This document shows, piece by piece, positions 43,489 through 60,251 of a stretch of 64,000 nucleotides of DNA. Numbering within the stretch: position 1 is the stretch's first letter; every line of letters starts with the position of its first letter. Under the pieces are notes generated by a model. It saw nothing but the letters and a program-made list of their open reading frames with translations, was not told the DNA's origin and ran no database searches. The position numbers and the translations under genes are program-made. This DNA is from Acidimicrobiaceae bacterium. Lineage in GTDB: Bacteria; Actinomycetota; Acidimicrobiia; Acidimicrobiales; Aldehydirespiratoraceae. The stretch covers positions 62,001 through 126,000 of the forward strand of contig JAPOYA010000059.1 of assembly GCA_026706815.1 (NCBI GenBank), given 5' to 3'.

Positions 43489-43821
43489 TCAGACATGCAG
43501 CCCGGAACCAGGCTTGGTCACGTCCAAGACAATCACGGAGACCTTGTGCGCTTCGCTGGCGCTCAAGCACGCGGAGTTGCACTCTTTGCCTGTTCGGATT
43601 TCCGAGACGGTGCATCGGAAGAGGGTTTCGAGCACGTCGATGTCGTCATTTTGCGAGGGAGGCTTGTCTTGTTCGATCGCGGCGAGGAATTGAGTGAGGC
43701 TGTCGTGTCCGCGTGTGCAGTCGTGTATGGCTTCGAGCGTCAACGGTAGATTCCACGACGGTTTGAGCTGTTGCAGATGACGACGGGTGATGCAGGGGGT
43801 ACACTTGGCCCATGGGATCAC
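43489..43821 (-). CDS. Hypothetical short protein
   Basis: I do not recognise it. The convincing part is the last 85 residues (LEAIHDCTRGHDSLTQFLAAIEQDKPPSQNDDIDVLETLFRCTVSEIRTGKECNSACLSASEAHKVSVIVLD), with four Cys and an amphipathic look. The first 25 residues are probably not translated: the GTG at the far end overlaps the leu leader peptide in antisense, and a TTG near 43742 is a possible true start. If it is real, it fills most of the 360-base gap between greA and leuB; otherwise that gap holds only the attenuator. Confidence 0.35.
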   Translation of the reverse strand: MIPWAKCTPCITRRHLQQLKPSWNLPLTLEAIHDCTRGHDSLTQFLAAIEQDKPPSQNDDIDVLETLFRCTVSEIRTGKECNSACLSASEAHKVSVIVLDVTKPGSGLHV

Positions 43822-43850
43822 GCAGCCCGTTGATCGTAGCTATTGCCTAG
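43812..43850 (+). CDS. leuL: Leucine/branched-chain leader peptide (MGSRSPLIVAIA)
   Basis: A 12-codon frame whose second half reads Leu-Ile-Val-Ala-Ile-Ala before TAG. The last base of the stop is the first base of a 9-bp perfect hairpin, which is followed by a terminator hairpin and then leuB. Four branched-chain codons in a row in a leader are the classic arrangement for transcription attenuation by ribosome stalling. No strong ribosome site is visible (tacacttggccc ahead), which fits a weakly or leaderlessly translated frame. Confidence 0.75.
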   Translation: MGSRSPLIVAIA

Positions 43851-43905
43851 CGCACGCCCGTTGTGGCGTGCGCCGACCGTCCACTTCGGTGGGCGGTTTT
43901 CTTTT
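43850..43905 (+). promoter_or_regulatory. leuB attenuator: pause hairpin plus terminator
   Basis: Two stem-loops stand between the leader peptide and leuB. Hairpin 1: GCGCACGCC (43850-43858) pairs perfectly with GGCGTGCGC (43865-43873). Hairpin 2: ACCGTCCAC (43876-43884), loop TTCG, GTGGGCGGT (43889-43897), one G-U pair, followed by TTTTCTTTT. Hairpin 2 is a good intrinsic terminator. A mutually exclusive anti-terminator pairing is not obvious by eye, although the GGGCGG arm could pair with CGCCCG in hairpin 1's left arm and loop. Confidence 0.75.
43876..43905 (+). terminator. Rho-independent terminator of the leu attenuator
   Basis: 9-bp stem with a UUCG-type tetraloop, then a T-rich run, 30 bases before the leuB start. 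It would stop transcription when the leader is fully translated. Confidence 0.75.
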
Positions 43906-43936
43906 GTCCCAGACAGCCAGAGATTGAGAAAAAAAC

Positions 43937-44947
43937 ATGACCCATCGAGTGGGAATAGTGGGCGGAGACGGAATCGGCCCCGAAGTCATAGCCGAGGGCT
44001 TGAAGGTCATCGCCGCGGCCGGAGTGGAGATCGACGCGGTCCACTACGACCTCGGCGGCAGCCGGTATCTCAAAGACGAAGTCGTGCTGACCGACGAGAT
44101 CGTCGATGAGTGGCGCACGCTCGACGCGATATATCTCGGCGCGGTCGGAACCCCCGACGTGCCGCCTGGAGTCATCGAGCGGGGACTCCTGCTCAAGATG
44201 CGCTTCGACCTCGACCTGTACATCAACTACAGGCCCTTCAGTTGTGGACCCGAGAGTGCCAACACCAGCCCCATGTCGGGGGCTGAGGAAACGGGGTTCG
44301 ACTTTGTCGTCATCCGCGAGAACACGGAGGGCGCCTACGCCGGCGAGGGCGGTTTCCTGCGCAAGAACACTCCCCATGAGATCGCCACTCAGGGATCGGT
44401 CAACACCCGTGTCGGCGTTGAGCGTTGTGTGCGGTACGCCTTCGAGTTGGCGTCGAGGAGGCGCAAACACCTGACTCTGGTCCACAAGACCAACGTGTTG
44501 ACCTTCTCAGGCGACCTTTGGGAGCGGACCTTCAACGAAGTGGCTGACGAGTACCCCGAAGTGGAGACGGCCTACAACCATGTCGATGCGGCCTGTATTT
44601 ACTTCGTGGATGATCCGCAGCGTTACGACGTCATAGTCACCGACAACCTTTTCGGCGACATCCTGACCGACCTCGGCGGCGCTGTCAGCGGCGGGATCGG
44701 TTTCGCGGCGTCCGCCAACTTGCATCCGGGGCGGGTCTCGATGTTCGAGCCCGTTCATGGATCGGCTCCCGATATTGCCGGCACCGGCAAGGCCAACCCG
44801 ACAGCAGCCGTATTGTCCGGTGCGCTGATGCTCGACCATCTCGGAGAGGACCAGGCTGCTGAGAGGATTCGCAAGGCCTGCAAAGACCCCGATTCTCTGA
44901 GCGGATCAACCACAGAAATAGGCGATGTCATCGCCGCTCGCTTGTAG
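43937..44947 (+). CDS. leuB: 3-isopropylmalate dehydrogenase
   Basis: NAD-dependent oxidative decarboxylation of 3-isopropylmalate, third step of leucine synthesis. Shows IVGGDGIGPEVIAEGLKV, GLLLKMRFDLDLYINYRPF, FVVIRENTEGAYAGEGG and DNLFGDILTDLGGAVSGGIGFAASANLHPG. 336 residues fits the short actinobacterial LeuB. It is controlled by the leader-peptide attenuator and starts a leuB-ilvE-cimA operon, with 8 bases to ilvE. Beta-methylmalate activity in the citramalate route to isoleucine is plausible given cimA downstream. Confidence 0.95.
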   Translation: MTHRVGIVGGDGIGPEVIAEGLKVIAAAGVEIDAVHYDLGGSRYLKDEVVLTDEIVDEWRTLDAIYLGAVGTPDVPPGVIERGLLLKMRFDLDLYINYRPFSCGPESANTSPMSGAEETGFDFVVIRENTEGAYAGEGGFLRKNTPHEIATQGSVNTRVGVERCVRYAFELASRRRKHLTLVHKTNVLTFSGDLWERTFNEVADEYPEVETAYNHVDAACIYFVDDPQRYDVIVTDNLFGDILTDLGGAVSGGIGFAASANLHPGRVSMFEPVHGSAPDIAGTGKANPTAAVLSGALMLDHLGEDQAAERIRKACKDPDSLSGSTTEIGDVIAARL

Positions 44948-44955
44948 GAGGCACA

Positions 44956-45873
44956 ATGCCCATCACCCCCACCCCCAACATCTGGATGAACGGCGAGATG
45001 GTCCCGTGGGACCAGGCGCAGATTCACGTGCTCTCCCACACCCTGCATTACGGGACAGGCGTATTCGAAGGTATTCGTGCCTACGAGACAGCTGACGGGC
45101 CGGCCATTTTTCGGCTCAGGGAGCACATCGAGCGCCTCTTCAACTCGGCGCGAATCCTGAATATGCCGATGCCGTACTCGATTCCCGAAGTCATCCAAGC
45201 ATGCAAAGACGTCGTGGCCGACACAGGGTTGAGCAGTTGTTATCTCCGCCCGATCGCGTATTTCGGCTATGGCGAGATGGGTCTGTCGATCGAACATTGC
45301 AAGACCGATGTCGCCATCGCTGCCTGGCCCTGGGGAGCGTATCTCGGTGATGACGCCGCAACCAAGGGCGTGCGCATGAAGATCTCGTCGTGGAAGCGCC
45401 ACGACCACAACATCATGCCGCCCGCGTCCAAAACCACGGGCAATTACGCCAATTCGACCTTGGCGAAAATGGAAGCTCTCGCCGCGGGTTACGACGAGGC
45501 GATCATGCTCAACAGCGCTGGCCTGGTTTCCGAGTGCAGCGGTGAGAACATCTTCGCGGGTCTCGGTGATGTGGTCTACACTCCGCCGACCTCGGCGGGT
45601 GCTCTGAAAGGAATCACCCAGGACACCGTGGCCGCACTCGCCGACGACCTTGGAATCAACATTGCGGTGGGCGAGATGACCCGCAGCGACCTTTATATCG
45701 CTGACGAGATTTTCGTTGTCGGTACAGCCGCGGAAGTCAGTGCGGTGAACTCGGTTGATGATCGCGCCATCCCCTGTCCGGGTCCGGCCACCAAAGCAAT
45801 CGCGGAAGCGTATGCCGAGGTTGTCCGGGGCAAGAACCCGAAATACCGATCGTGGAACGAGCTCGCGTCGTGA
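44956..45873 (+). CDS. ilvE: Branched-chain amino acid aminotransferase
   Basis: Fold-type IV PLP aminotransferase performing the last step for Leu, Ile and Val. Key regions are NGEMVPWDQAQIHVLSHTLHYGTGVFEGIRAYET, the PLP region ASKTTGNYANSTLAKMEALAAGYDEAIMLNS and VSECSGENIFAG. 305 residues, ATG with ggaggcaca ribosome site. Its stop overlaps the cimA start by GTGA. Confidence 0.95.
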   Translation: MPITPTPNIWMNGEMVPWDQAQIHVLSHTLHYGTGVFEGIRAYETADGPAIFRLREHIERLFNSARILNMPMPYSIPEVIQACKDVVADTGLSSCYLRPIAYFGYGEMGLSIEHCKTDVAIAAWPWGAYLGDDAATKGVRMKISSWKRHDHNIMPPASKTTGNYANSTLAKMEALAAGYDEAIMLNSAGLVSECSGENIFAGLGDVVYTPPTSAGALKGITQDTVAALADDLGINIAVGEMTRSDLYIADEIFVVGTAAEVSAVNSVDDRAIPCPGPATKAIAEAYAEVVRGKNPKYRSWNELAS

Positions 45874-47561
45874 GCGGTTCTGCCGCTGTTTCGGGCGGCG
45901 CTGCGGATTCCGGCGTGAGCGGCGCCGAGGCATCGATCGAACGCGCAGGTGTTCGGGACCCGGCTTGGCCCGAACAAGTCGAGATCTACGACACGACGCT
46001 GCGCGACGGCTCTCAACTGGAGGGGATTTCGCTCACGGTCGACGACAAATTGCGGATAGCGGAGCAACTAGACCTGCTCGGCGTCGGATATATCGAGGGC
46101 GGCTACCCGGGGGCAAACCCCAAAGACGACGAGTTCTTCGAGCGTGCCAAAACCGAACTGCGGTTGACGACCAGCAAGTTTGTGGCTTTCGGCTCAACCC
46201 GGCGCCCACGCGGAAAAGTCGACTCCGACAACTCGCTGGCCAATCTGGTGGTCGCCGGGACCGAGGTTGTGTGCATCGTCGGCAAGTGTTGGGACTACCA
46301 CGTCACCGAAGCGCTCGGCACGACCCTTGACGAAGGCGTGGCCATGGCGGCCGACTCCATCGCCTACCTGGCAGCCAATGGCAAACGGGTTTTCTTCGAC
46401 GCGGAGCACTTCTTCGACGGCTACAAACGCAATCCCGAGTTCAGCCTGCGCGTTCTTGAACAGGCTGCGATCGCTGGAGTTGAAGCTGTGGTGCTGTGTG
46501 ACACCAACGGCGGTTCCCTGCCTCCCGAAATCGAACGGGCTGTGTCGGATGTGATCGCTCACGTCGACTGTGGCGTCGGCATCCACCTGCACAACGACAC
46601 TGGTTGCGGGGTGGCCAATGCCCTGGCAGCGGTGCGCGCCGGAGCCACTCAAGTCCAGGGCACGATCAATGGTTACGGCGAGCGGGTCGGGAACTGTGAT
46701 CTGGTTCCGATCATGGCCAACCTCGAATTGAAGATGGGCATTCCGTGTCTTCCCGAGGGCCGCATTGCTCGGTTGACTTCGGTGTCCCATCACATAGCCG
46801 AGCTGGTCAATTTAACCCCCGACCCGCAACAGCCCTATGTGGGCGCCTCGGCGTTCGCCCACAAAGCCGGCCTTCACACCAGCGCTTTGAATCGGCGACC
46901 TGATGCGTACGAACACGTTGCGCCGGAGTCGGTGGGCAACGGCACGCGCATTGTGGTCTCGGAGATGGCTGGGCGTTCGACTCTGGCGATGAAAGCCAAG
47001 AACCTGGGTCTCGAGATCGACGGGAAGGTTCTCGGTCATGTCGTCGAGACCCTCAAGGAACTCGAGCATTCGGGCTATCACTTCGAAGTCGCCGACGCTT
47101 CTTTGGAGCTGCTGATGCGCGGCGCGGCCGGTTGGGAACAGCCGTATTTCACTCTCGAGTCGTTCTCGGTCGACATGGCCCATCGTTCCGGTACGGGTGC
47201 GCGCCTGTGGAACGATGTGGCAGTCGACGTGGAGACTGAGGCCACGGTCAAGATTTGGGTAGACGGCGAACGGCGAATCGCGGTGGGGGAGGGCAACGGT
47301 CCTGTCAACGCGCTCGACGCGGCCGTGCGCTCGGCTTTGAACGGGCGTTATCCCGAGATCGATCGGGTGTCGCTCACGGACTTCAAGGTTCGCGTGCTCA
47401 ACACTGAGAAGGGAACGGGCGCGGTGACACGTGTGCTGCTCGACAGCACCAACGGCGAGCGCTCGTGGTCGACCATCGGTGTGTCTGAGAACATCATTGA
47501 GGCGTCATGGCAGGCCCTCATTGATTCCCTCGTCTACGGCCTGCTCCTAGCCGACGAATAA
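45870..47561 (+). CDS. cimA: Citramalate synthase
   Basis: Condenses pyruvate and acetyl-CoA to citramalate, giving a threonine-independent route to isoleucine. The DRE-TIM segment EIYDTTLRDGSQLEGISLTVDDKLRIAEQLDLLGVGYIEGGYPGANPKDDEFF and GIHLHNDTGCGVANALAAVRAGATQVQGTINGYGERVGNCDL match CimA (as opposed to LeuA). A C-terminal LeuA-dimer regulatory domain follows (YFTLESFSVDMAHRSGTG onward). I chose the GTG that overlaps the ilvE stop. The GTG-to-residue-30 segment is Ser/Ala/Gly-rich, so a slightly later start is possible. Confidence 0.92.
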   Translation: MSGSAAVSGGAADSGVSGAEASIERAGVRDPAWPEQVEIYDTTLRDGSQLEGISLTVDDKLRIAEQLDLLGVGYIEGGYPGANPKDDEFFERAKTELRLTTSKFVAFGSTRRPRGKVDSDNSLANLVVAGTEVVCIVGKCWDYHVTEALGTTLDEGVAMAADSIAYLAANGKRVFFDAEHFFDGYKRNPEFSLRVLEQAAIAGVEAVVLCDTNGGSLPPEIERAVSDVIAHVDCGVGIHLHNDTGCGVANALAAVRAGATQVQGTINGYGERVGNCDLVPIMANLELKMGIPCLPEGRIARLTSVSHHIAELVNLTPDPQQPYVGASAFAHKAGLHTSALNRRPDAYEHVAPESVGNGTRIVVSEMAGRSTLAMKAKNLGLEIDGKVLGHVVETLKELEHSGYHFEVADASLELLMRGAAGWEQPYFTLESFSVDMAHRSGTGARLWNDVAVDVETEATVKIWVDGERRIAVGEGNGPVNALDAAVRSALNGRYPEIDRVSLTDFKVRVLNTEKGTGAVTRVLLDSTNGERSWSTIGVSENIIEASWQALIDSLVYGLLLADE

Positions 47562-58334: not shown

Positions 58335-58420
58335 TGCGGGAGGGGGGAGTCGAACCCCCACGGGCCTTTCGGCCCACCAGGCCCTCAGCCTGGCGCGTCT
58401 ACCAGCTTCGCCACTCCCGC
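58335..58420 (-). tRNA. tRNA-Leu (GAG)
   Basis: Long variable arm; acceptor GCGGGAG/CTCCCGC, anticodon loop CTGAGGG. Discriminator A followed by encoded CCA. Last of the array in transcription order. Confidence 0.93.
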
Positions 58421-58469
58421 GCTGAGTGTCGGCCCTCACATCACCGCTCACGGTCACGCGACGGTTGCG

Positions 58470-58543
58470 TAGCGACACCAAGACTCGAACCTGGGGCCAA
58501 CGCGTTATGAGCGCGCCGCTCTAACCAACTGAGCTATGTCGCT
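58470..58543 (-). tRNA. tRNA-Met or Ile2 (CAT)
   Basis: Acceptor AGCGACA/TGTCGCT, anticodon loop CTCATAA. No CCA. Elongator Met is likely, but a lysidine-modified Ile2 with CAT cannot be excluded. Confidence 0.88.
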
Positions 58544-58547
58544 GTGG

Positions 58548-58633
58548 TACGGGGAGTGAGAGTCGAACTCACACGGGCCTCTCGGCCCACCAGGTCCTGA
58601 ACCTGGCGCGTCTACCTGCTCCGCCACCCCCGC
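58548..58633 (-). tRNA. tRNA-Leu (CAG)
   Basis: Long variable arm; anticodon stem CCAGG/CCTGG with loop TTCAGGA. Acceptor has two G-U pairs. CCA is encoded. Confidence 0.93.
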
Positions 58634-58658
58634 TCGTTCGCCCGAAATACGAGCGCTG

Positions 58659-58731
58659 TGGCCCGAGGCGGAATCGAACCGCCGACCTCTCGCTTTTCAG
58701 ACGAGCGCTCTTCCAACTGAGCTACCGAACC
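58659..58731 (-). tRNA. tRNA-Phe (GAA)
   Basis: Acceptor GGTTCGG/TCGGGCC (three G-U pairs), anticodon loop CTGAAAA. No CCA. Confidence 0.92.
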
Positions 58732-58735
58732 GTTG

Positions 58736-58809
58736 AGCCGGAGACGGGATTTGAACCCGTGAATCACTGCTTTGCAGGCAGTCCCCTTAGTCCACTCGGG
58801 CACCCCGGC
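58736..58809 (-). tRNA. tRNA-Cys (GCA)
   Basis: Anticodon stem ACTGC/GCAGT with loop CTGCAAA; acceptor GCCGGGG/CTCCGGC. Discriminator U, the tRNA-Cys identity base. No CCA. Confidence 0.93.
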
Positions 58810-58814
58810 GTTGG

Positions 58815-58901
58815 CGGAAAGGGCGGGATTTGAACCCACGGACGCTCACACGTCGCCGCCTTAGCAGGGCGGTGCCATAAACCTGACTCGGCCACCTTTC
58901 C
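58815..58901 (-). tRNA. tRNA-Ser (GCT)
   Basis: Long variable arm; anticodon stem CCGCC/GGCGG with loop CTGCTAA, acceptor GGAAAGG/CCTTTCC. CCA is encoded. Confidence 0.93.
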
Positions 58902-58904
58902 ATG

Positions 58905-58978
58905 TAGGCACGAGTGGAGTTGAACCACCGGCCTCTCCCTTATCAGGGGAGCGCTCTGACCAACTGAGCTACGTGCCT
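58905..58978 (-). tRNA. tRNA-Ile (GAT)
   Basis: Acceptor AGGCACG/CGTGCCT, anticodon stem CTCCC/GGGAG with loop CTGATAA. No CCA. Confidence 0.93.
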
Positions 58979-58986
58979 TCGTGTTG

Positions 58987-59062
58987 CGCCCCCAACCGGA
59001 TTTGAACCGGCGACCTCCGCCTTGACAGGGCGGCGCTCTGGACCTGGCTGAGCTATGAGGGC
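58987..59062 (-). tRNA. tRNA-Asp (GTC)
   Basis: Anticodon loop CTGTCAA on stem CCGCC/GGCGG; acceptor GCCCTCA/TGGGGGC (one G-U). A slightly long D loop. No CCA. Confidence 0.92.
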
Positions 59063-59076
59063 AGGCTTGTTCTTGG

Positions 59077-59149
59077 TACCCCCAACGGGATTCAAACCCG
59101 TGTTTCCGGCGTGAAAGGCCAGCGTCTTTGTTCGCTAAACGATGGGGGT
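59077..59149 (-). tRNA. tRNA-Glu (TTC)
   Basis: Acceptor ACCCCCA/TGGGGGT; anticodon loop CTTTCAC. CCA is encoded. Confidence 0.9.
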
Positions 59150-59230
59150 GAGGATCGTGTGGCTTCGGCTGTGATCCCATGAAGCCTTCTGGAAGCTCAA
59201 CATTCCGTCCCACAACTAGACGGACGATGG

Positions 59231-59315
59231 AGGAAACGGCGGGATTTGAACCAGCGGACCCGTGAAGGTCTCCTGGTTTCGAGACAGGTGCATTAGTCCG
59301 CTCCGCCGCGTTTCC
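59231..59315 (-). tRNA. tRNA-Ser (CGA)
   Basis: Long variable arm; acceptor GGAAACG/CGTTTCC; anticodon loop CTCGAAA with a T-C mismatch closing the anticodon stem. Discriminator T, then CCA. Both deviations are unusual for Ser. Confidence 0.85.
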
Positions 59316-59320
59316 ACTAG

Positions 59321-59393
59321 CACTCCAGGCGGGAGTCGAACCCGCTACCTCCTGGCTGAGAACCAGGCGTCCAACCCGGTAGACCGCTGGGGC
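59321..59393 (-). tRNA. tRNA-Glu (CTC), second copy, divergent
   Basis: Anticodon loop TTCTCAG on stem CCTGG/CCAGG. Acceptor GCCCCAG/CTGGAGT contains a C-A mismatch at position 3. It differs clearly from the housekeeping tRNA-Glu(CTC) at 50743. No CCA. Confidence 0.78.
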
Positions 59394-59398
59394 GTGCG

Positions 59399-59471
59399 TG
59401 CGTCTCCTGGGGATCGAACCCAGAGCCTTCGGATTAAGAGTCCGCTGCTCTTCCAGTTGAGCTAGAGACGC
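59399..59471 (-). tRNA. tRNA-Lys (CTT)
   Basis: Acceptor GCGTCTC/GAGACGC; anticodon loop CTCTTAA; one mismatch at the far end of the anticodon stem. No CCA. Confidence 0.88.
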
Positions 59472-59572
59472 ATGTTGAGAGCCTGCCAAGAGGCGCTGTT
59501 GCTCAGGTCGGCGATGCGGCTGAGGCTGCTGAGCGTTCAAGTTCCTTGAGGATTTTCTTGAAGAGCTTTTGG

Positions 59573-59645
59573 CAGGGAAGGCGAGGGTCGAACTCGCGGC
59601 CTCCTGGTCCAGAGCCAGGCGCTCTACCAACTGAGCTACTTCCCA
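59573..59645 (-). tRNA. tRNA-Gln (CTG), second copy
   Basis: Anticodon loop CTCTGGA on stem CCTGG/CCAGG. Acceptor TGGGAAG/CTTCCCT has a T-T mismatch at 1-72. CCA is encoded. Duplicates the isoacceptor at 50596. Confidence 0.87.
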
Positions 59646-59655
59646 TTGTTACTGG

Positions 59656-59729
59656 TCGGGGTGACTGGATTTGAACCAGCGGCCCCCTGCTCCCAAAGCA
59701 GGTGCTCTTCCAAGCTGAGCTACACCCCG
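59656..59729 (-). tRNA. tRNA-Pro (TGG), array copy
   Basis: Acceptor CGGGGTG/CACCCCG; anticodon loop TTTGGGA. CCA is encoded. Its 3' half is nearly identical to the tRNA-Pro at 62415-62488. Confidence 0.93.
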
Positions 59730-59738
59730 CGGTGATGG

Positions 59739-59812
59739 CTGGGAAGGTGGGCCTCGAACCCACGGCCTCTCGGTTAACAGCCGAGCGCTCTGCCGAACTG
59801 AGCTACTTCCCA
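59739..59812 (-). tRNA. tRNA-Asn (GTT)
   Basis: Acceptor TGGGAAG/CTTCCCA; anticodon stem CTCGG/CCGAG with loop CTGTTAA. CCA is encoded. Confidence 0.93.
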
Positions 59813-59816
59813 TTGG

Positions 59817-59890
59817 TCGGGCTGGGCGGACTTGAACCGTCGACCTCCTCGTCCCGAACGAGGCGCGCTGCCAAACTGCGCCACAACCCG
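59817..59890 (-). tRNA. tRNA-Pro (CGG)
   Basis: Acceptor CGGGTTG/CAGCCCG (one G-U); anticodon stem CCTCG/CGAGG with loop TTCGGGA. CCA is encoded. Confidence 0.93.
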
Positions 59891-59895
59891 TAGCA

Positions 59896-60022
59896 CGGAG
59901 CACCCGCAAAAGACCGAGGACTTCAACCTCGCTCGACTTAGCTTCGTGCGGGAACCCCACGGAGCGCCGGCGAGAACATCGACGACGCTTGAATCCTGAG
60001 ATCCAGTCTCTGTGGTGCTCCG
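59896..60022 (-). ncRNA. Possible structured RNA inside the tRNA array
   Basis: Where a further tRNA would be expected there is instead a region closed by a 9-bp stem (59896-59904 with 60014-60022). It contains a 5-bp stem with a 7-base loop TTGAAGT (anticodon-arm-like, CGAGG/CCTCG) and flanking arms CCGCA/TGCGG, but no T arm. A second GCTCCGTG copy could compete for the outer strand. It may be a degenerate tRNA, a tRNA-like RNA, or chance. Confidence 0.3.
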
Positions 60023-60096
60023 CGTCTGCCGCTGATCGTGCGATCAGGACTAGTCGCGGCGGATCGTGACCGAAGCGCCGGCTTCGGGTATTGGCG

Positions 60097-60169
60097 TGCC
60101 CAAGAGAGGCATCGAACCCCTAACCTCCTGTTTACAAGACAGGCGCTCTGCCTGTTGAGCTACTCGGGC
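60097..60169 (-). tRNA. tRNA-Thr (TGT)
   Basis: Acceptor GCCCGAG/CTTGGGC (one G-U); anticodon stem CCTGT/ACAGG with loop CTTGTAA. No CCA. Confidence 0.93.
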
Positions 60170-60178
60170 GAGTGCGTG

Positions 60179-60251
60179 TGCCGGTGAGAGGAATCGAACC
60201 CCTGGCCCTCTCGTTACGAATGAGACGCTCTGCCAACTGAGCTACACCGGC
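60179..60251 (-). tRNA. tRNA-Thr (CGT)
   Basis: Acceptor GCCGGTG/CACCGGC; anticodon loop TTCGTAA with an A-C mismatch next to it. No CCA. First of the array in transcription order; the 220 bases upstream hold no gene and should contain the promoter. Confidence 0.9.

Follow-up and report, generated by a model that had tools for sequence, protein, structure and literature searches.

Upstream of leuB, ilvE and cimA lies a short ORF whose stop codon falls inside a perfect hairpin (H1), and this hairpin abuts an intrinsic terminator. The arrangement is conserved among relatives, and its leader codons match the pathway of the genes that follow and occupy positions −2 to −5 counted back from the stop. 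We conclude that the element is most probably a transcription attenuator of the ribosome-mediated kind, which would respond to charged isoleucine tRNA, and to some extent to valine, in its control of leuB-ilvE-cimA. Its sequence and predicted fold show two features expected of such a device, namely codons for an end product of the pathway and a putative terminator that separates the ORF from leuB. The predicted response is that readthrough rises when isoleucine is scarce.

Leader, hairpins and operon at the leuB locus

The features of the locus are collected in Table 1, with positions given in the window, by which we mean the whole 64,000-nucleotide stretch of DNA that was analysed.

Table 1. 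Features of the leuB leader element and its operon, in window coordinates
Feature	Position	Strand	Basis and remarks
−10-like box TACACT	43800..43805	+	6 nt upstream of leader ATG
Leader ORF MGSRSPLIVAIA, TAG stop	43812..43850	+	Ile at −5 and −2, Val (GTA) at −4, Leu (TTG) at −6
Hairpin H1, 9 bp, perfect, GCGCACGCC/GGCGTGCGC	43850..43873	+	Fold and covariation; opens on the third base of the leader stop
Intrinsic terminator stem-loop, 10 pairs, TTCG loop	43875..43898	+	Minimum-energy fold, terminator scan, relatives
T-rich terminator tail	43897..43905	+	First two T also paired in the extended stem
leuB, 3-isopropylmalate dehydrogenase	43937..44947	+	NF002898, 485.8 bits (cut-off 393)
ilvE, branched-chain aminotransferase	44956..45873	+	NF005146, 408.7 bits (cut-off 279)
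cimA, citramalate synthase	45870..47561	+	TIGR00977, 666.4 bits (cut-off 450); start codon uncertain

The leader frame reads ATG GGA TCA CGC AGC CCG TTG ATC GTA GCT ATT GCC TAG, which confirms the frame of 12 codons with branched-chain residues reported in the initial annotation. That annotation also had a perfect 9-bp hairpin starting exactly where the frame ends. The hairpin itself stands, but its position needs refining: frame and hairpin share one base, the final G of the TAG stop. The minimum-energy fold of positions 43812–43910 consists of this 9-bp stem and the 10-bp terminator stem. Its energy is −43.6 kcal/mol, compared with −33.1 ± 3.3 kcal/mol in dinucleotide shuffles (z = −3.2; 1 of 200 shuffles was as good). 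A terminator scan returned GACCGTCCAC-TTCG-GTGGGCGGTT followed by TTCTTTTG, with leuB 38 nt downstream of the stem. Thus, fold and scan both bear out the intrinsic terminator that had been placed before the operon.

The position of the −10-like box, 6 nt before the ATG, suggests that transcript and leader ORF probably start together, so that the RNA would be leaderless. A TANNNT box lies 6–8 nt upstream of the leader start at all 46 parsed family loci, a count obtained with a parser that demanded such a box 4–8 nt before the start. A generic sigma-70 consensus promoter scan found 0 promoters at the locus. On the minus strand, opposite the promoter and the leader start, runs a 110-codon ORF (43489–43821) that has no NCBIfam match and may not be a gene. 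Among the Rfam matches in the window, only tRNAs reach their gathering scores, and the element matches no known family at that level. Most of the 23 tRNAs found by Rfam in the window belong to a dense run of tRNA genes on the minus strand at 58335–60251.

The third gene of the operon encodes citramalate synthase, an isoleucine enzyme. In the host assembly (3.04 Mb in 65 contigs, 95% complete), threonine ammonia-lyase, sought with model TIGR01127 only, has no match at the cut-off (best 48.4 of 378.75 bits). This result makes citramalate the likely route to isoleucine in the host.

Conservation and control codons

Of 51 family genomes, 49 have LeuB at E ≤ 1e-80, and the upstream regions of all 49 were read. 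The short ORF, its stop, H1 and the terminator are kept together at 46 of them, which is more than chance would give. The ORF, the terminator and the operon form a conserved, pathway-matched unit, which upholds the attenuator reading first proposed from the window as well as the expectation that relatives would keep both codons and stems. Three loci are exceptions. The element is absent from one (L048), and at the other two (L019, L044) the leader, H1 and the terminator are missing, while a −10-like box lies 6–7 nt before the leuB start. The latter two look like natural deletions, as if the element had been excised and leuB had itself turned leaderless. In the terminator 5′ arm, the segment CCGTCCAC (43877–43884) is nearly invariant, occurring at 45 of 46 family loci. 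Its U is kept opposite G or A, even though C would be the better partner for the common G.

In total, 271 loci were examined, of which 255 could be parsed. Once exact duplicates, and these only, had been collapsed, the set comprised 219 distinct elements: 135 before leuB, 74 before ilvB, 6 before cimA and 4 before leuA. All 16 unparsed loci were left out of it. They include the three true absences just described; clear elements that the parser missed (L203, L215, L216, L217, L222, L260, L261, L270, L281 and L165); elements of weaker form (L109 and L088); and a locus (L196) at which the matched gene start does not adjoin the element.

The penultimate codon (−2) is isoleucine in 46 of 46 family leaders. 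In the larger set, counts at −1 to −3 are biased, since the models used to gather most loci cover these positions, a bias that affects neither −4 and −5 nor the family set; with this proviso, leuB leaders carry isoleucine at −1 to −6 in 3, 132, 57, 74, 36 and 8 of 135 cases, and cimA leaders in 0, 6, 6, 4, 4 and 0 of 6. Under the same proviso, leucine occupies each of −2 to −5 in 4/4 leuA leaders and neither −1 nor −6 in any (0/4), and leucine, valine or isoleucine is found at −1 to −6 in 5, 64, 63, 71, 72 and 50 of the 74 ilvB leaders. Control codons sit at −2 to −5, and their edge at −1 is sharp before both leuB and ilvB. With isoleucine before leuB and cimA, leucine before leuA, and any of the three before ilvB, the codons track the downstream pathway.

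These counts change what the element is thought to sense. The initial annotation had called it a leu attenuator that responds to several amino acids at once. Leucine sensing is unsupported, because there is no run of leucine codons at the control positions. The sole leucine codon of the window's leader lies at −6, outside them, and leucine reaches at most 2/135 leuB leaders at any of −2 to −5 (15/135 at −6). What survives of the broader claim is isoleucine with some valine. Indeed, valine, often as GTA, is also present at −3 to −5 of leuB leaders. This rare codon makes up 3% of the valine codons in the window's operon, yet it accounts for 78 of the 126 valine codons at those positions.

Codon choice also differs for isoleucine: at −2 of leuB leaders it is ATT in 100 of 132 cases, and ATC prevails at −3 to −5. 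The bias at −2 may reflect codon sensitivity or a constraint on the RNA. In one genus, the two leuB leaders L109 (MSPRSISVLH) and L111 (MSPAVVSVPH) have no isoleucine at −2, and L111 has none at all. Both keep their hairpins, and perhaps these leaders have decayed or been retuned.

The same variation bears on whether the ORF matters. It might be incidental to a conserved structured 5′ UTR, to a site bound by a protein, or to a terminated small RNA. Leader translation is itself presumptive, and the locus has weak local matches to the Rfam small RNAs Hrs13 (21.2 of 52 bits) and isrB (21.1 of 35 bits), far under their gathering scores. However, leaders at family loci differ in length by whole codons (10–15 residues), while their stop keeps its place at H1. 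Moreover, isoleucine codons swap synonymously between ATC and ATT, and the encoded residues follow the downstream pathway. We regard an incidental ORF as very unlikely.

How H1 may act on the terminator

The third base of the stop codon lies in H1. Among the 207 elements that use TAG, its partner is C in 195 and U in 6, and it is unpaired in the remaining 6; among the 12 that use TGA or TAA, its partner is U in 8, and it is unpaired in 4. The helix finder slightly favours helices that begin at this base, but it does not choose the partner. Within H1 there are also compensatory changes, for example from A-U to G-C at one pair in 13 of 46 family loci. A helix that holds the last base of the stop, and whose partner base changes to match, points to a structure dependent on ribosome position, which an arriving ribosome would open. 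H1 and the terminator share no bases and are separated by 0 to 8 nt, as measured with a parser that disallowed overlap and allowed up to 12 nt.

We propose the following sequence of events. A ribosome would start on the probably leaderless ORF. When isoleucine is plentiful, it would reach the stop, H1 would be unable to fold, the terminator would form and transcription would end. When isoleucine is scarce, the ribosome would stall at one of the control codons at −2 to −5, a little before H1; the hairpin would then fold, and transcription would go on. In this scheme, H1 itself would be the antiterminating structure. The most speculative step is how it could defeat a terminator with which it shares no bases. 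Termination requires closure of the stem deep in the polymerase exit channel, and a folded H1 only 0–8 nt away may block that closure. We put this juxtaposition forward tentatively, as an idea with somewhat less than an even chance of being right.

A base-paired antiterminator would be the more familiar solution. In the textbook four-segment layout, H1 would be the protector (1:2), and upon stalling its freed 3′ arm would pair with the terminator 5′ arm (segment 3) as a 2:3 antiterminator. Some pairing of this kind is available. If segment 4 is removed and the 7 or 13 nt immediately downstream of the stop are masked, segment 3 has a mean probability of 0.40 and 0.51, respectively, of pairing upstream (46 loci), and in the window's genus a 6-bp bulged pairing, GTGGCG/CGTCCAC, can be read from the sequence and the fold. 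RNA folding for a competing antiterminator had been suggested when the element was first noticed, and we sought one among pairings of segment 3 with H1 plus spacer, of segment 3 with the ORF, and of segment 4 with both. None of those with segment 3 held above permuted controls. For segment 3 against H1, permuted arms gave averages as high in 85% of cases under the 7-nt mask and in 45% under the 13-nt mask. In a further comparison, 198 of 336 permutations were as strong for leuB and 248 of 301 for ilvB, a set in which several rows have the wrong stop. Against the full upstream stretch, 202 of 336 permutations were as strong for leuB (125 exact-core elements) and 32 of 42 for ilvB (54 elements). 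The pairing of segment 2 with segment 3 that typifies trp attenuators thus shows no excess over permuted arms in these comparisons. In addition, stalling at −5 to −3 would not mask H1, although the codons there are conserved control codons. We consider the four-segment arrangement unlikely.

One candidate did appear in this search. Segment 3 and the ORF of leuB elements gave an excess (a fraction of 0.00 among 60 permutations as strong), mostly around the start codon. It was dropped because the sequences had been permuted separately; one common permutation gives 47 of 336. For leuA, segment 4 against the ORF shows an apparent excess that comes from four related sequences only.

The direction of H1's effect deserves separate attention. 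With codon −2 in the A site, 5 nt remain before H1, a gap near that at which frameshift-stimulating hairpins sit. By this comparison, H1 should probably still be foldable when the stall occurs at −2, and should no longer be so one codon later. An edge of the control codons between −2 and −1 is what would be expected if folded H1 signals shortage. Conversely, should the base of H1 already be melted by a ribosome at −2, the model would not hold for the most conserved codon. Alternatively, the sign might be reversed, with H1 aiding the terminator and the stalled ribosome preventing H1 and so causing readthrough. By footprint reasoning, a ribosome at −2 may already cover the first bases of H1. However, the control codons reach back to −5, where the ribosome should not touch H1, and they avoid −1, where it certainly would. 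We judge the reversed sign improbable, about on a par with the four-segment arrangement.

The same spacing would also suit a mechanism that needs no alternative structures, in which a starved ribosome shifts frame or passes the stop and itself ploughs through the terminator; the distance of H1 from codon −2 fits the usual spacing of a frameshift-stimulating hairpin. The −1 frame is open to the end of the terminator in 46/46 family loci, and the readthrough frame in 43/46. Much of this openness is imposed by structure, since the sequences of H1 and the terminator lack stop triplets. Furthermore, the +1 frame is open in 26/46, the extended frames show no protein conservation, and their ends vary. 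We give this explanation hardly any weight, even less than the incidental ORF. Hindrance of the terminator by a folded H1 is the reading that we tentatively favour.

Known attenuators and the wider occurrence of the element

In actinobacteria, leader peptides are known to attenuate ilv and leu genes, and several of these peptides are leaderless (PMC1262725, PMC8079986, PMC11857589, PMC11109978, PMC13236596, as far as the available text of these sources goes). The closest counterpart in logic is M. tuberculosis ilvB1NC. Its leader ORF has four branched-chain codons (LVVI, GUA included) before a Rho-independent terminator, the antiterminator is masked once a ribosome sits at the stop, and changing LVVI to AAAA abolishes induction (PMC13236596, available text). 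Compared by description, it differs in its gene, ilvB1, and in having a mutually exclusive antiterminator and terminator, whereas here H1 and the terminator do not overlap and the codons are dominated by isoleucine. The ilvBNC leader of C. glutamicum is alike in encoding a nearly leaderless peptide, with its start one nucleotide from +1, in its isoleucine, valine and leucine codons, and in its hairpins and terminator. In contrast to the present element, it precedes ilvB, its antiterminator and terminator overlap in a boundary GCC, and its peptide, MTIIRLVVVTARRLP, ends four to five codons past the control codons (PMC11857589, PMC11109978, in the portions available). Removal of its start codon lowers expression, according to the available text of PMC11857589, which is the opposite of what our model would predict without translation; that attenuator, however, is built differently.

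Other precedents share parts of the design. The ilvB candidates of Seliverstov 2005 in Corynebacterium, Mycobacterium and Streptomyces combine short ORFs rich in isoleucine, valine and leucine codons with terminators. Their ORFs overlap the terminator, and the available text describes neither leuB or cimA leaders nor a stop-containing hairpin, and calls the mode of regulation of actinobacterial ilvB leaders unclear (PMC1262725). The LEU element of actinobacterial leuA, from the same available text, is a pseudoknot in which leucine codons and the leuA Shine-Dalgarno box form the base stem, whereas the present element lies before leuB, has a terminator and lacks a leucine codon run (PMC1262725). 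Streptomyces lividans has leaderless leader peptides before ilvBHC, leuA and leuS; as far as its available text goes, the report describes no leuB or cimA leader, and its leuA leader is without a typical terminator (PMC8079986). The enterobacterial trp, his, leu and ilv attenuators (PMC1183508, available text) likewise convert ribosome stalling on cognate codons into readthrough, but through the base-paired 2:3 antiterminator that we sought here and did not find. In the open-access literature searched, no leuB, cimA or acidimicrobial attenuator is described by title or abstract, and antitermination by an upstream hairpin has no precedent at that level.

The element is not restricted to leuB. 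In the window's own genome, but beyond the window itself, a second element with this design lies upstream of ilvB (L164, G000:C54:75145-75226); its leader is MSLRPVPDLVVAVS, with Leu-Val-Val codons. Among 198 genomes of the order (Acidimicrobiia), 126 have a match to R1, a covariance model of the element, at E ≤ 0.01, and many of these have a second copy. Most of the second copies that were fetched lie before ilvB, leuA or cimA, with the downstream gene confirmed by NCBIfam in one case each. R2, a model of the ilvB-type element, matches 38 of 40 family genomes, including the window's own. A strict pattern of the element retrieved 33 records, all titled Acidimicrobiia, Acidimicrobiales, a family or genus belonging there or, less precisely, actinobacteria.

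In the phylum, R2 matches 78 of 396 genomes at E ≤ 0.001, an upper figure because, of 20 loci fetched (19 at phylum or class level and 1 from the order), 6 look like chance matches (L205, L207, L213, L219, L220 and L221) and 2 are ambiguous (L209 and L218). By reading, 12 of the 20 precede a branched-chain gene. One of these 12, L217, has a downstream gene that we take to be leuA from a motif, and its tblastn label is cimA-like.

These matches raise the prospect of a design shared across the phylum, in which a stop-containing hairpin antiterminates by abutting the terminator, without a base-paired antiterminator, and is reused with swapped codons before leuB-ilvE-cimA (isoleucine), cimA (isoleucine), leuA (leucine) and ilvB (leucine, valine or isoleucine). 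Like the juxtaposition itself, we hold this to be a possibility that falls a little short of even. If true, it would amount to one very compact logic of branched-chain control across Acidimicrobiia and probably other Actinomycetota. It may also explain why earlier work on ilvB leaders, in its available text, saw peptides and terminators but not the mode of regulation (PMC1262725). More broadly, if juxtaposition of two hairpins suffices, alternative base pairing would not be a universal requirement of attenuation.

Finally, at two loci from one family of the phylum (L196 and L218), a leader ending in LVLIT precedes a gene for a small protein, which starts MKIEIYNGEHVGTAEW and MKFEFENGKYLGTAEW, respectively.
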